A stretch of DNA of 64,000 bases from Demequina sp. TMPB413 (GTDB taxonomy: Bacteria > Actinomycetota > Actinomycetes > Actinomycetales > Demequinaceae), in the NCBI RefSeq assembly GCF_020447105.2, contig NZ_CP096184.1, positions 868,001 through 932,000 of the forward strand, in the 5' to 3' direction. Below the pieces are notes generated by a model, which searched no databases, was not told where the DNA came from, and saw only the letters and a program-made list of their open reading frames with translations. Shown here one piece after another: positions 1,331 through 7,458 of this stretch (positions are counted from its first letter, which is position 1; every line of letters starts with the position of its first letter). Position numbers and translations under genes: made by a program.

Positions 1331-3730
1331 TCAGGCGACGTAGTCCTTGAGGTGTCGGGCGGTGAGTGTCTTGCCGTCGGCCACCATGTCGGTTGCTGTT
1401 CCCTCGAACACCACCGTTCCGCCGTCGTGGCCAGCGCCGGGACCAAGATCGATGATCCAATCCGCGTGAGCCATGACGGCTTGGTGGTGTTCGATCACGA
1501 TCACCGTGTTGCCGTCGTCGACGAGGCGATCCAAGAGGGCCAAGAGGTTGTCCACATCAGCAAGGTGGAGCCCTGTGGTGGGCTCGTCCAAAATGTACGT
1601 CGTGCCCTTCTTGGCCATCTGAATGGCGAGTTTGAGGCGTTGACGCTCGCCCCCCGACAAGGTGTTGAGCGCCTGGCCGAGGCCGATGTAGTGCAAGCCG
1701 ACGTCGTTGAGACGCGCAAGAATCGCGGCGGCCGGGCCATCGGCGAAGAACTCGAGTGCCTCTGCAACGGACATCTGGAGGACCTCGTGGATATTCCTGT
1801 CGCGCAACCTGTACTCGAGCACTTCGTCCGTGAAGCGCTTGCCCTCGCACGCCTCGCAGATGGTGCTGACCGTCGCCATCGGGCCGAGGTCGGTGAAGAT
1901 GAGGCCAGCCCCTTTGCACACGGGGCAGGCGCCTTCAGAGTTGGCGCTGAAGAGGGCCGGCTTCACCCCGTTTGCCTTCGCAAAGTCCTTGCGGATGATG
2001 TCGAGCAGGCCCGTGTACGTGGCGGGATTGGACCGGCGTGATCCCTTGATCGCACTCTGGTCAACGACGACCACCTGATCGCGCGAGGCGAGGTTGCCGT
2101 GAATCAGCGAACTCTTGCCGGAACCGGCCACACCGGTGACCACCGTCAGGATCCCTGTGGGCACGTCAATGTTGACGTCGCGCAAGTTGTGCTGGGTGGC
2201 ACCCCTGATCTCGAGTGCGCCGGTCGCTTTGCGCGGATGGGCGCGCAACTCAGCGCGGTGGTCGAGATGGCGCCCCGTGAGCGTGTCGGAGGAACGCAAC
2301 TGAGCGACGGTGCCGGTGAACTCGACCTGCCCACCGTCCTTGCCTGCCCGCGGTCCGAGGTCGACCACGTGGTCGGCAATGGCAATCACCTCTGGCTTGT
2401 GCTCGACCACGAGGACGGTATTGCCTTTGTCGCGCAGGCCCAGCAGGAGGGTGTTCATGCGCTGGATGTCATGCGGGTGGAGGCCTGCAGTGGGTTCGTC
2501 GAACACATACGTGACGTCGGTCAGGGCGGAGCCAAGGTGTCGCACCATCTTGACGCGTTGAGCCTCTCCGCCCGACAACGTACCTGCGGGCCGGTCGAGG
2601 CTGAGGTAGCCGAGGCCAATCTGCACGAGCGCGTCGAGGTTCTCTTGTAGCCCATTGAGGAGGGGAGCGACGGAGGGCTCGTCCAGTCCCCTCACCCATT
2701 CGGCGAGGTCGGAGATCTGCATGGCACAAGCGTCGGCGATGTTGACGTGACCAATGCGCGAAGACCGTGCCGCCTCCGCGAGCCGCGTGCCCTCGCAGTC
2801 CGGGCATGTGGTGAAGGTGACCGCCCGCTCTACGAAGGCCCGGATATGCGGCTGCATGGCGTCCACGTCTTTGGAGAGCATCGACTTCTGGATCTTGGGC
2901 ACCAGGCCCTCGTAGGTCATGTTGATCGACTCGATCTTGACCTTGGTGGGTTCCTTGTAGAGGAAGTTGTCTCGCTCGCGTTGGCTGGAGTCGCGGATGG
3001 GCTTGTGGGGGTCGAAGAATCCAGACTCGGTGAAGATGCGAACCATCCAACCGTCGGCCGTGTAGCCGGGGATGGTCAGGGCGCCCTCCGCAAGGGACTT
3101 CGAGTCGTCGAATAGCTGGGTCAGGTCAATGTCGTTGATCGAGCCCATTCCTTCACAGCGCGGGCACATCCCGCCAAGTACCTTGTATTCGCGCTTCTCG
3201 GCCATGACAGCGCCGCCTTTTTGCACCTTCACCGAACCGACACCAGTGGAGGACGGCACGTTGAACGAAAACGCCTGCGGTGGCCCGATATGAGGCTGGC
3301 CCACCTTGCTGAACAGGATGCGCAGCAGCGCATTCGCATCGGTCGCGGTGCCCACGGTCGAGCGCGAGTTGGCGCCCATGCGCTCCTGATCGACAATGAT
3401 CGCCGCGCTGACGCCACGAAGTGAGTCCACGTCCGGGCGGGCGAGCGACGGCATGAAGCCTTGGACGAATGCGCTGTAGGTCTCGTTGATGAGGCGCTGA
3501 GACTCGGCGGCAATCGTGCCAAATACCAGGGATGACTTTCCCGAGCCCGAGACGCCGGTGAAGACCGTCAGCCGTCTCTTGGGGATGGTGAGCGAGACGT
3601 CTTTGAGGTTGTTCTCGCGCGCTCCCTTGACCTCAATGAAGCCGTGAGAGTCAGCGGGATGGGCGCGGTCGGAAGAGTCGGGCAAGGCTGGCTCCTTGGA
3701 TGCAGGCGGAATGGGGACGATGCCTGACAT
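1331..3730 (-). CDS. UvrA-like ABC ATPase (short UvrA paralogue)
   Basis: Protein of 799 aa with two UvrA-type ATPase modules. Walker A motifs GVSGSGKSS and GVAGSGKSS and ABC signatures LSGGEAQR and LSGGERQR are all intact. Zinc-finger-type pairs CPRC, CPDC, CPVC and CEAC follow the UvrA pattern. It is about 150 residues shorter than housekeeping UvrA (about 950 aa), mainly in the N-terminal insertion where UvrB docks. It is therefore more like the UvrA2/DrrC-type paralogues linked to DNA-lesion or drug tolerance than to core excision repair; that function is an inference. The start MSGIVPIPP is preferred over an upstream ATG because the extra 44 residues are low-complexity and run into the divergent promoter region. 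Confidence 0.85.
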   Translation of the reverse strand: MSGIVPIPPASKEPALPDSSDRAHPADSHGFIEVKGARENNLKDVSLTIPKRRLTVFTGVSGSGKSSLVFGTIAAESQRLINETYSAFVQGFMPSLARPDVDSLRGVSAAIIVDQERMGANSRSTVGTATDANALLRILFSKVGQPHIGPPQAFSFNVPSSTGVGSVKVQKGGAVMAEKREYKVLGGMCPRCEGMGSINDIDLTQLFDDSKSLAEGALTIPGYTADGWMVRIFTESGFFDPHKPIRDSSQRERDNFLYKEPTKVKIESINMTYEGLVPKIQKSMLSKDVDAMQPHIRAFVERAVTFTTCPDCEGTRLAEAARSSRIGHVNIADACAMQISDLAEWVRGLDEPSVAPLLNGLQENLDALVQIGLGYLSLDRPAGTLSGGEAQRVKMVRHLGSALTDVTYVFDEPTAGLHPHDIQRMNTLLLGLRDKGNTVLVVEHKPEVIAIADHVVDLGPRAGKDGGQVEFTGTVAQLRSSDTLTGRHLDHRAELRAHPRKATGALEIRGATQHNLRDVNIDVPTGILTVVTGVAGSGKSSLIHGNLASRDQVVVVDQSAIKGSRRSNPATYTGLLDIIRKDFAKANGVKPALFSANSEGACPVCKGAGLIFTDLGPMATVSTICEACEGKRFTDEVLEYRLRDRNIHEVLQMSVAEALEFFADGPAAAILARLNDVGLHYIGLGQALNTLSGGERQRLKLAIQMAKKGTTYILDEPTTGLHLADVDNLLALLDRLVDDGNTVIVIEHHQAVMAHADWIIDLGPGAGHDGGTVVFEGTATDMVADGKTLTARHLKDYVA

Positions 3731-3822
3731 GAGTCTAGAACGCGGCTCCGACGAGTGGCCTGGCCGGGCGCGACGGGCCGACGCTGGGCCAAAGTTCCCG
3801 CTCGAGACCACCCGAGGCCCGC

Positions 3823-3828
3823 TACGGT
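3823..3828 (+). promoter_or_regulatory. -10 box TACGGT for a leaderless start
   Basis: TACGGT fits the TAnnnT pattern and ends 6 nt before the ATG at 3835. That spacing would put the transcript start at or next to the start codon. No good -35 box and no Shine-Dalgarno sequence is seen. Confidence 0.4.
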
Positions 3829-3834
3829 CGCGAC

Positions 3835-4260
3835 ATGGATATTGACCCGCGGAACCCTGCACCTGTCGCTGCCTTTGCCCGTCAGGAGCGCCTCGTCGTC
3901 GTGTCCACCGTCTCGCCCACTGGCGACCCAGAAGCGGCGCTCGTCGACATCGCGGCCGACGATGAGGGCACCTTCTTCTTCAACGCCTACAAGACCGCGC
4001 GCAAACTCAACAACCTACGCGCCAACCCGAAGGCTGCCATGGTCATCGGGACCAGGGGAGAGGTGTCGCTCCAACTGGAGGGTCCGGCGTACGTCGCCGA
4101 GGGCGAAGAGAAGGCGTACCTCGCGGCCGCACATGTCGCCCACTACCCAGGCTCGCGCGCAGAGCACGAGGACTTCGAGATGGTCGTCATCCGCCCCACC
4201 TGGGTGAGGCACTACGACGCCTCGACAAGGCCGCCCACGGTGGTCGAGGTGACCTGGTAG
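3835..4260 (+). CDS. PPOX-fold pyridoxamine-phosphate-oxidase-like protein
   Basis: Small protein of 141 aa with the split-barrel flavin-binding architecture. The N-terminal segment with RLVVVSTVSPTGDPEAALV is the usual first strand pair. FFFNAYKTARKLNNLRANPKAA is close to the phosphate-binding stretch seen in FMN- or F420-binding members. It could use FMN, F420 or neither; the sequence does not decide. It is divergent from the UvrA-like gene (104 bp apart) and converges with the PhoX-like gene through a shared hairpin terminator. The ATG appears leaderless, with a -10-like box just upstream. Confidence 0.75.
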   Translation: MDIDPRNPAPVAAFARQERLVVVSTVSPTGDPEAALVDIAADDEGTFFFNAYKTARKLNNLRANPKAAMVIGTRGEVSLQLEGPAYVAEGEEKAYLAAAHVAHYPGSRAEHEDFEMVVIRPTWVRHYDASTRPPTVVEVTW

Positions 4261-5743: not shown

Positions 5744-6340
5744 CTAGTCGGACGTGAAGCTGATGGAGTCGGCTACGTAATACCAGGCCGAACGCGCGGA
5801 CTCGTCACTCTGGTAGATCGTGGGCGTGCCGGGGGTCATGATCCATTTGTGCTCGCCAGCATCGATCAGCAACCGGGTGGGCGGCTCACCTTCTGCGTAT
5901 GCCGTGGCGCCCGCGATGGTTGGCTCCCACGTGGACAGGTCGGCTGGCGCTGACACGTCTGCGGTCTCGACAATGTCGAAGTAGAACCCCGCGCCGAGAT
6001 CGATCACATCGGGGGTGAACGCCCAGGTCAGGCGGAACCCGCCGTCGATTGACTGGACGTCCACCTCTTCAGGGACGATGAGCCCCAGTTCAGCTGCGTC
6101 GGCGCGCGCCTCTTCATCTGGAGACGAGCGCCCGAACATCAGCCACGCTCCCAAGGCAGCGATCACCAAAACTAGCGCCATCGCTGCGAACAGAACCTCC
6201 CGATGCGGACGGGTACCGAGGGGCTCCATTCCGTCGCCTCCGGCCGTGACTCCTCCAACGCGCGGATCCCTCGTGGGCGTGGATCCGTGGTGGGCGGCCG
6301 GCCCGTTGTATCCGCCCATGCGTCCGTTGTACGGGTCCAC
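5744..6340 (-). CDS. Hypothetical one-pass membrane protein
   Basis: Protein of 198 aa. The first 45 residues are Gly/Pro/Asn-rich with a repeated Tyr-Asn-Gly motif. One transmembrane helix spans about residues 49-69, followed by an extracytoplasmic domain of about 130 residues. That domain may be a beta-sandwich of fibronectin-III type, but this is only suggested by its pattern of short Val/Phe/Trp strands. The start is GTG with a G-rich ribosome site (AGGGGG) 7 nt upstream and a -10-like TACAAT farther up. No function can be assigned. Confidence 0.7.
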   Translation of the reverse strand: MDPYNGRMGGYNGPAAHHGSTPTRDPRVGGVTAGGDGMEPLGTRPHREVLFAAMALVLVIAALGAWLMFGRSSPDEEARADAAELGLIVPEEVDVQSIDGGFRLTWAFTPDVIDLGAGFYFDIVETADVSAPADLSTWEPTIAGATAYAEGEPPTRLLIDAGEHKWIMTPGTPTIYQSDESARSAWYYVADSISFTSD

Positions 6341-6369
6341 GTATTGCCCCCTTTTGCGTCGCTCCGATC

Positions 6370-6375
6370 ATTGTA
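6370..6375 (-). promoter_or_regulatory. -10 box TACAAT for the 5744-6340 gene
   Basis: On the minus strand TACAAT lies about 30 nt before the GTG start at 6340. A convincing -35 box is not visible, so the call rests on the hexamer and position. Confidence 0.4.
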
Positions 6376-6455
6376 GGCACACGGTAGCGAGGCCACCGCT
6401 GGAACCCATGTGCGCGGAGTCCCGGGCGTCGGCGGCCCATCCGAGCGCCAGCGTC

Positions 6456-6557
6456 GGCCGGTACGAATCAAGCCACTGGCGGGATTAGTGGGTGAAGGCC
6501 GGTACGAATCAAGCCACTGGCGGGAGATGGGTGCCGAAATCGGTACGAATCAAGCCA
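6456..6557. repeat. Three direct repeats with an exact 41-bp period
   Basis: A 29-bp unit occurs at 6456-6484 and again, identical, at 6497-6525. A third copy keeps the 17-bp core CGGTACGAATCAAGCCA at 6541-6557. The core starts at 6459, 6500 and 6541, exactly 41 bp apart. The spacers of 12 and 15 bp differ in sequence. The array sits in the 361-bp gap between the end of the superoxide dismutase gene and the start of the membrane-protein gene. The rest of the gap holds the promoter-like box at 6370 and the hairpin at 6581-6637; I see no gene there. Confidence 0.9.
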
Positions 6558-6580
6558 TTTCGAGGGGCGGAGGGGCGGAC

Positions 6581-6637
6581 GGGCGGGCCGGAAACGACCT
6601 CGGGCGGGCCAGCCGTTTCCGGTAGGCCCGCCCGAGG
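6581..6637. terminator. Strong GC hairpin(s) downstream of the superoxide dismutase gene
   Basis: CCTCGGGCGGGCC (6598-6610) pairs perfectly with GGCCCGCCCGAGG (6625-6637) across a 14-nt loop. A competing pairing uses 6581-6595 with 6615-6633, with a 4-nt bulge. It lies about 65 bp past the stop codon on the minus strand. It lacks a T-tract. Two alternative stems could also mean a processing signal. Confidence 0.6.
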
Positions 6638-6701
6638 CGGGGGAGACGCCGACCGGGCGAACCCGGGAAGGGGGACAGCGTCTCTGTGAAGCAGAGGGTC
6701 T

Positions 6702-7319
6702 CTAGACGAGCAGGCCCTGGGTGCCAGAGGCACGGGTGAAGCGCTGCTGGACGTTGGCCCAGTCAACGACGTTCCACCAGGCCTTGACGTAGTCGGCCTT
6801 CACGTTCTTGTACTGCAGGTAGAAGGCGTGCTCCCACATGTCGAGCATGAGCAGCGGGATGAGGCCAACGGGCACGTTGCCCTGCTGGTCGTACAACTGC
6901 ACGATGACCAGCTTCTTGCCGATCGTGTCGTAGGCGAGGATCGACCAGCCGGAGCCCATGACGGTCATGGCGTTGTGGGTGAAGTGAGCCTTGAACTTGT
7001 CGAAGGAGCCAAAGTGCTCGTCGATCGCGGTGGCGAGGTCGCCCGTGGGCTTGTCGCCTCCATCTGGCGACATGTTGGTCCAGAAGATCGAGTGATTGGT
7101 GTGTCCGCCAAGGTTGAAGGCGAGTGCCTTCTCGAGGCCGGCGATTGCCGCAAAGTTGTCGGTGTCGCGAGCCTCTGCCATCTTCTCCAGAGCGGTGTTC
7201 GCGCCAGCGACATAGGCGGCGTGGTGCTTGGAGTGGTGAAGTTCCATGATCTCGCCCGCGATGTGCGGCGCGAGTGCTGCATAGTCGTAGTTGAGGTCCG
7301 GCAGCGTGTAGTCAGCCAT
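6702..7319 (-). CDS. sodA: Superoxide dismutase, Mn/Fe family
   Basis: Cytosolic enzyme of 205 aa, the normal length, converting superoxide to oxygen and hydrogen peroxide. The expected metal ligands are present: His28, His76 in GHTNHSIFW, Asp160 and His164 in DMWEHAFY. The sequence cannot firmly separate Mn from Fe use. A ribosome site (GGAGGAAG) precedes the ATG. It follows qcrB on the same strand but a 139-bp gap with a palindrome suggests its own promoter. A strong hairpin lies downstream. Confidence 0.97.
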
Positions 7320-7363
7320 TCTTCCTCCAGTGCGCCCCGGGGCTTCCGAGACTCTCGTTGTGG

Positions 7364-7383
7364 CGCGTACCAGGAGGTACGCG
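7364..7383. promoter_or_regulatory. Palindrome upstream of the superoxide dismutase gene
   Basis: CGCGTACC-AGGA-GGTACGCG is a perfect 8-bp inverted repeat with a 4-nt centre, 45-64 bp before the ATG of sodA. A TTGACT about 16 nt upstream on the minus strand would place the -10 region inside the palindrome. It could be an operator or a 5' leader hairpin. No known regulator consensus is matched. Confidence 0.4.
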
Positions 7384-7458
7384 TTTGTCCTTCAGAGTCA
7401 ACGTGTGTGCGTCGGTGACCATTCCATTGTGGTGCGAAAGGCCCGCGCGCGCGACCGG

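Follow-up and report, generated by a model that had tools for sequence, protein, structure and literature searches.

The question raised by this locus is what the short array of direct repeats beside a superoxide dismutase (SOD) gene represents. In the 64,000-nt stretch of DNA analysed here (the window), the sequence CGGTACGAATCAAGCCA occurs three times, exactly, between the SOD gene and the neighbouring ORF, and the copies start at 6459, 6500, and 6541, that is, at a spacing of 41 + 41 bp. An earlier note had described a pair of identical 29-bp units and a third core of 17 bp with a 41-bp period, and this description was confirmed by the coordinates and by a shuffle control: with up to three mismatches, exactly three core copies were found in the window, against a mean of 0.13 and a maximum of 2 in shuffled sequences (0 of 100 shuffles reached three). 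The core sequence CGGTACGAATCAAGCCA was not found in the literature searched, and no description of such arrays appeared in the titles and abstract starts of the literature matches listed. The features of the locus are as follows.

5744..6340, minus strand: 198-aa ORF on the inner side of the array
6450..6458, plus strand: inner flank AGCGTCGGC, read by eye
6459..6475, plus strand: core copy 1, CGGTACGAATCAAGCCA, inside the 29-bp unit 6456-6484
6500..6516, plus strand: core copy 2, inside the 29-bp unit 6497-6525, which is identical to the 6456-6484 unit
6541..6557, plus strand: core copy 3, a 17-bp core, outermost and SOD-proximal
6558..6592, plus strand: G-rich tail on the outer side, which reads as C-rich in the SOD transcript
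6598..6637, strand-neutral: G+C-rich inverted repeat 3′ of SOD, probable terminator
6702..7319, minus strand: Fe/Mn superoxide dismutase gene, with Sod_Fe_N and Sod_Fe_C matches

The array has the SOD hairpin on one side and the neighbouring gene on the other, and its outer side (the 3′ side of the core) looks onto the 3′ end of the SOD gene. The 198-aa ORF on the inner side gave no match in Pfam or NCBIfam.

The count of copies and spacings that the earlier note had proposed for this genome and its relatives revealed a large family. In G000 (the assembly of the window; one contig, 2,920,349 bp) there were 101 core matches with at most three mismatches and a single match for the reversed-pattern control, while the degenerate consensus core CGGTACRRATYRAGCCA gave 98 matches at one mismatch and none for its control. 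The roughly 100 copies in this 2.92-Mb genome form 32 clusters in the window and 26 fetched regions, four of them single matches, a count that leaves out isolated weak matches at 78338, 358681, 1040824, 2358699, 2429127, and 2434673. Twenty-seven clusters overlap no called gene; the five that do include three single matches and, in addition, one coding copy. Many dispersed copies, mostly between unrelated genes, are what defines an interspersed intergenic repeat, and the suggestion of a family of intergenic repeats was clearly right. Thirteen core positions were kept in at least 85% of the first and last units (a set chosen by consensus resemblance), and the remaining four vary mostly by transitions (R, R, Y, R).

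The geometry of the family was read from 52 clusters across G000 and a second genome of the genus, G017. Within arms, 93 of 97 spacings were either 41 bp (48) or 42 bp (45), the others being 39–40 bp (3) and 43 bp (1), so that the four-turn spacing noticed at the SOD locus holds family-wide. Arms contain one to six units, most commonly two. For units scoring at least 14 and with the FlhF copy excluded, 16 clusters contain both orientations no more than 200 bp apart. In all 16 the minus arm stands on the left and the plus arm on the right, i.e., (-)(-)...(+)(+), and the two arms were of equal size in 14 of them (permutation p 0.0012; G000 alone 0.003); when weaker units are counted, clusters 392k and 1117k change to 4 and 5 and the two unequal clusters to 2 and 2. 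In G000 the cores of paired arms were more alike than after shuffling (p 0.004), an effect not seen in G017 (p 0.36). A CRISPR array, with its unique spacers, is not supported, as the 24–25-bp spacers are partly repeated within arrays (e.g., in the plus arm 392154-392293).

The coding copy consists of two palindromes, CGGTACGAATGG(NN)CCATTTGTACCG, 42 bp apart (L067:3919-3986; G000:C1:2392918-2392985). Both are in frame within the low-complexity linker of a 497-aa ORF, which we take to be FlhF, and encode GTNGSIRTG and GTNGAIRTG; here a coding region appears to have taken up the repeat. The full palindrome was also considered as a parent operator and rejected, since its only two exact matches are these in-frame ones in G000.

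As for the genomic setting, the outer side of the arms looks onto the 3′ end of a gene in 46 of 67 cases and onto a 5′ end in 21 (pooled binomial p 0.003, with the two genomes non-independent owing to shared orthologous arrays). By genome, the 3′-facing arms numbered 27 of 41 in G000 (p 0.06) and 19 of 26 in G017 (p 0.03). The 67 arms exclude the FlhF copy and arms without any core scoring at least 15/17, and the facing counts depend on a home-made codon-usage gene caller. The inner side of unpaired arms was neutral in this respect (17 to 18). The G-rich tail seen at the SOD array is common on the outer side of family arms: the 30 nt past the outer core are G-rich, more so for 3′-facing arms (0.27 vs. 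0.15, p 0.03). Flanking proteins include SOD, IMPDH-like, phosphoketolase, SpoIIM, HSP20, ABC transporters, SpoU methylase, SseB, ribosomal S15, PhoH, serpin, and a LacI-type regulator, among others. No shared theme was found among the flanking genes scanned with Pfam (38 of 54 in G000, 4 of 37 in G017), and a common regulon was rejected. Together with the predominance of 3′-facing arms, this speaks against a regulator array in the usual sense, one of the options raised earlier. Another, an iteron-like site, is unsupported for a repeat at about 30 dispersed chromosomal places: the 32 clusters lie on a 2.9-Mb contig, 72,556 plasmid and 50,697 phage records held no similar DNA, and no replication initiator was encountered among the 38 of 54 flanking G000 genes scanned. 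A plasmid or phage origin was rejected on the basis of the plasmid and phage records.

The distribution of the repeat is narrow. A search for the exact paired pattern across 44 genomes of the genus gave 52 matches in G000, 22 in G017, and none elsewhere (control, 0). The degenerate core at one mismatch gave, besides the 98 matches in G000, 62 in G017, 5 in G053, and 3 in G012; one match each in five other genomes is at chance level because the control also gave five. Absence from close relatives had been named beforehand as a refuting observation, and this holds in part, arrays or more than one core being confined to 4 of the 44 genomes in the pattern searches. Fourteen genomes representing other families of the same order gave no core match at two mismatches. 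Presence outside the genus was rejected: scans of genome contigs and of viral sequences with the paired pattern, in collections that may omit genomes near that of the window, gave one match each, both locally repetitive and coding-like.

The SOD gene itself is present in all 44 genomes. By eye, at 30 SOD loci, an array 3′ of the gene was seen in three of the four array-bearing species, with three units in G000, two in G017, and two (one degenerate) in G053. The inner flank AGCGTCGGC is common to the SOD-side arrays of G017 and G053; the SOD locus of G012 has no array, yet it retains this flank as GCCGACGCTGGGG (by eye). Similar hairpins downstream of SOD occur in G017, G053, and G012.

At the genome scale, reciprocal best hits placed a G017 array near the orthologous gene for 13 of the 32 G000 clusters, counting cluster 1409098, which rests on the DUF222 gene itself, and the ambiguous 395908, whose neighbours have matches at a G017 site without an array as well. 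Locus alignment added G017 counterparts for 1516206, 1517422, and 1982725, and eight G017 loci reached via a flanking gene of G000 arrays contained no unit (L226-L228, L230-L232, L234, L235). A position-weight scan detected units, some of them weak, at 5 of 19 loci in G053 and 3 of 15 in G012, and at none of 13 in G021, all of these being a chosen subset located, except for the SOD loci, via one flanking gene. In G017 it detected units at 4 of 12 loci, two of which (L236, L237) had been fetched because they had units. One mononucleotide shuffle per locus gave one match at 10 bits and none at 12. Median HSP identity to G000 was 81.7% for G053, 79.8% for G012, 75.5% for G017, and 73.8% for G021. 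As G053 and G012 are nearer to G000 than G017 is, many of the “empty” sites there are probably losses; from this comparison, the arrays common to G000 and G017 are probably ancestral, with later loss or decay in G053 and G012. At 2534871, degenerate units are found in G012 and none in G053. The alignment at 443286 is good apart from one 42-bp unit that is missing from G053 (two units in G000, one in G053). Across 39 comparisons the interval in the array-less relative was shorter in 28 and longer in 11.

Where arrays were retained, their cores were conserved. Fourfold sites are nearly scrambled between G000 and G017, at 51% identity over 5531 sites in 29 reciprocal-best genes of array loci. In contrast, at ten orthologous array pairs the 13 fixed core positions matched the consensus at 453 of 468 sites in G000 and 374 of 390 in G017 (96–97%), a count that takes units of at least 13/17 at loci with arrays in both species, includes the ambiguous pair, and favours conserved cores. 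Neutral 17-mers should not survive a divergence of this extent, judging from the sequence comparison; repeated independent insertion at the same places could be another source of the orthologous arrays. Core conservation in both array-rich species points to cooperative binding by a sequence-specific protein. The earlier doubt that slippage alone made the array stands, in that the spacers differ and the cores are constrained between species; what does change is the number of units.

Some arrays travel with genes. The array forms the front end of eight DUF222-HNH (13E12-type) elements, three in G000, four in G017 (one truncated, one interrupted), and one in G053. Repeats of about 1.7 kb made of array, leader, and DUF222-HNH gene are located at 1409k, 1736k, and 2598k in G000 and at 185k, 1123k, and 1878k in G017. 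The 1409k protein, the sole gene-bearing copy tested, matched both PF02720 (5e-34) and PF01844 (5.3e-07), i.e., DUF222 and HNH. Between same-genome element copies, BLAST homology sets in no more than 12 bp from the outer end of an array core in four of six pairs; in the other two it begins just inside the array, though the arrays also align. For at least three elements the relatives have unoccupied sites. The G017 element at 1878k, beside pheS, has its DUF222-HNH gene (L082:4754-6124; G017:C1:1879753-1881123) interrupted by a transposase gene, presumably an IS256-type insertion, and measures about 3.4 kb vs. 51 bp in G000. The array and DUF222 gene at 1736k in G000 take up 2204 bp vs. 7 bp in G053. 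The G017 copy at 1065655 combines array and leader with a truncated DUF222 start in an interval of 639–663 bp vs. 127 bp in G000, 126 in G053, and 115 in G012. In G053:C2 two units stand upstream of a DUF222 gene. Two G000 sites with an array but no DUF222 gene have such a gene in a relative. For site 443286 the relative is G012:C50, which aligns on both flanks and has no array that could be recognised; for 1304811 it is G053:C2, which has an array as well and aligns on one flank only. The right ends of the elements showed no array, and no target-site duplications were readable at the unoccupied sites, where the flanks are too diverged.

The association is far from general. Of the 44 genomes, 42 contain DUF222 genes, and this array was seen at only 2 of 30 fetched DUF222 loci (L147 and L151, one each in G000 and G017), from which it follows that DUF222 genes generally do not need it; an array upstream of DUF222 genes as a rule was rejected. 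At L140, L142, L146, and L155, repeats with a different period upstream of DUF222 rose above the shuffle maximum. Within the close subfamily (at least 58% identity), the genes in G053:C67 and G012:C50 have no upstream array. Beside the other arrays neither DUF222 leader nor protein was detected, except for one weak 59-residue match in L071. In the window neither the leader model nor DUF222 proteins gave a match, and the SOD array does not qualify as a gene-bearing 13E12 element. As a separate observation, a conserved leader, TGTCGTGCCCAGG ... TCCACAGG ... CGTGCCTGGTAGGTG ... GTCAGGGGGTGGTG, is common to the regions upstream of DUF222 genes (L214, L198, L199); it has an internal repeat of its own and is perhaps an operator.

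Several known repeat systems resemble this family in part. REP/BIME sequences with RAYT transposases are dispersed, intergenic, often 3′ of genes, and arranged in oriented combinations, as are the arrays described here. Unlike them, our arrays are direct repeats four helical turns apart, and single arms have no conserved hairpin. The Y1 transposase PF01797 was found in none of the 44 genomes, with 5 of 14 control genomes positive; given this absence and a unit that is not an imperfect palindromic hairpin, REP/RAYT identity was rejected. MIRUs are short tandem arrays between genes in an actinobacterium, with variable unit number. Our arrays are likewise short, tandem, dispersed, and variable in unit number, but it is mainly the core that is conserved, the spacers diverge, and the arms are paired head-to-head and mostly equal. 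Tn7-type transposon ends carry several directly repeated transposase sites per end, with the two ends inverted. The direct repeats per arm and the inverted arms seen here are similar, whereas no transposase (Y1 search), terminal dinucleotide, or target duplication was found. A further likeness is to REP13E12 of M. tuberculosis, a multicopy actinobacterial element with DUF222 and HNH domains and paralogous copies (PMC13061034, PMC10589994). The available portions of these papers describe the REP13E12 regions as containing a putative prophage attachment site and as having no defined function (PMC13061034) and treat REP13E12/HNH/DUF222 as a repetitive category (PMC10589994); a front-end 41/42-bp repeat array is not mentioned in these portions. 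The present family differs also in that most arrays are without a DUF222 gene and 28 of the 30 fetched DUF222 loci of the genus are without an array.

Taking these data together, our tentative reading, to which we assign a probability of about 0.45, is that the arms are front ends of small mobile elements and that gene-less arrays are retained through protein binding. The SOD array is a member of an interspersed DNA repeat family that is restricted to one clade. The repeat unit would be a core of about 17 bp recognised as double-stranded DNA; two or more co-oriented units four helical turns apart would form one arm, and a putative factor would bind the cores cooperatively on one helical face. 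Mobile elements with the arm as front end would settle downstream of genes. The gene-bearing form consists of arm, leader, and DUF222-HNH gene, and the gene-less single arms and head-to-head paired arms would be stripped or non-autonomous relatives, presumed mobile as well. Stripped arrays may survive near gene 3′ ends as bound sites, and the factor was presumably lost in G053 and G012, where arrays are mostly decayed or gone. The reading is favoured by the copy number and dispersal, the fixed 41/42-bp spacing, the constant order and mostly equal size of paired arms, the clade restriction, the homology that starts at the array end in four of six pairs, the unoccupied sites, the core constraint, and the DUF222 genes of relatives at sites with only an array in G000. 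Weighing against it are the 11 of 39 array-less intervals that are longer, the missing right-end array and target duplications, the two pairs with homology starting inside the array, the lack of a DUF222 trace at most arrays, the many DUF222 genes of the genus without this array (G053:C67 and G012:C50 of the close subfamily included), and the probable losses behind many “empty” sites. Core conservation also exceeds the needs of a passive transposon end, which counts against the reading.

That same strong conservation at orthologous places speaks for a host function, in which a clade-specific nucleoid-, insulator-, or roadblock-type protein binds near gene 3′ ends and separates transcription units, mobility being secondary or ancient. 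We regard this as possible, if somewhat unlikely. The four-turn phasing, a commonest arm size of two, the C-rich tail in the adjacent transcript, and the 46 of 67 arms facing a gene 3′ end (with orthologous arrays shared between genomes) agree with it, as do neighbours without a common theme, which a general boundary would predict. Yet 21 of 67 arms look onto a gene 5′ end, a hairpin, found in similar form in array-less relatives, stands between the SOD gene and its array, arrays are absent at most examined loci of close relatives, and arrays travel with DUF222 genes. We consider unlikely a more specific proposal, in which the arrays are recognition ends of 13E12-type elements, DUF222 binds the four-turn direct repeats, HNH makes its cut where genes end (3′), and arrays stripped of the gene turn into chromosomal binding sites under constraint; if true, a multicopy orphan nuclease family of actinobacteria would be a self-mobilising element class. 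Quite doubtful, in turn, is a transposon-like element with terminal inverted arrays, varied cargo, and a putative transposase acting in trans, the paired arms being MITE-like and the following unit the cargo-bearing form.

L058:4207-5642 (G000:C1:1516206-1517641); L229:2333-3614 (G017): REase_MTES_1575-like unit with inverted arrays, nuclease ORF in G000

Here clusters 1516206 (---) and 1517422 (+) bracket an ORF between what we take to be valS-like and clpX-like genes. The constant outward order and the equal arms would suit such a transposon, and so would the presence of this unit in G000 and G017 (arrays on both sides in the latter), with an interval of 1525–1538 bp reduced to 24 bp in G053 and 114 bp in G012. 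The paired array 2292594 likewise occupies 334 bp vs. 13 bp in G053. The absence in G053 may, however, be a deletion, and the array-less G017 interval at 2292594 is longer (615 vs. 389 bp). The bracketed ORF matches REase_MTES_1575 weakly (33.3 bits, below the Pfam cut-off of 38.2), no array-linked transposase was found (Y1 is absent from all 44 genomes), and no target duplication was read. An RNA element in 3′ untranslated regions appears very improbable. In its favour are the frequent position of arms 3′ of genes, the long hairpins expected from paired arms, and the z of -3.92 for one single arm (L055); but the other 11 of 12 single-arm folds (11 arrays, that of the window on both strands) ranged from -1.12 to +2.23. 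An RNAalifold alignment of 21 two-unit arms gave a covariation term of -0.29 kcal/mol, with a two-sided change in 1 of 10 pairs. Within 6200-7400 of the window the single Rfam match, at 16.3 bits, stayed below its gathering cut-off of 37.8. We give equally little credence to a neutral, VNTR-like tandem repeat that is passively copied: unit number does vary from 1 to 6, and the one-unit difference between G000 and G053 at 443286 is clean, but conserved cores next to diverged fourfold sites are hard to reconcile with neutrality, and so is the strict order of paired arms.

Whichever reading applies, the array provides a clear, searchable DNA signature tied to some DUF222-HNH genes, a family that PMC13061034 describes as being without a defined function. 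The 52 clusters in two genomes and the decayed versions in two relatives are material for tests of binding, mobility, and neighbour transcription.

Two further observations were made. The sequence GGCCGACGCYGGGG (e.g., G000 C1:1736086-1736099) gave 198 matches at one mismatch vs. 14 for the reversed control; with some copies on the inner side of arrays, it is possibly a second repeat family. Near the SOD region, window positions 1331-3862 encode an 843-aa ABC ATPase, presumably UvrA-like, and a similar gene is found at the matching place in G017 (L079).
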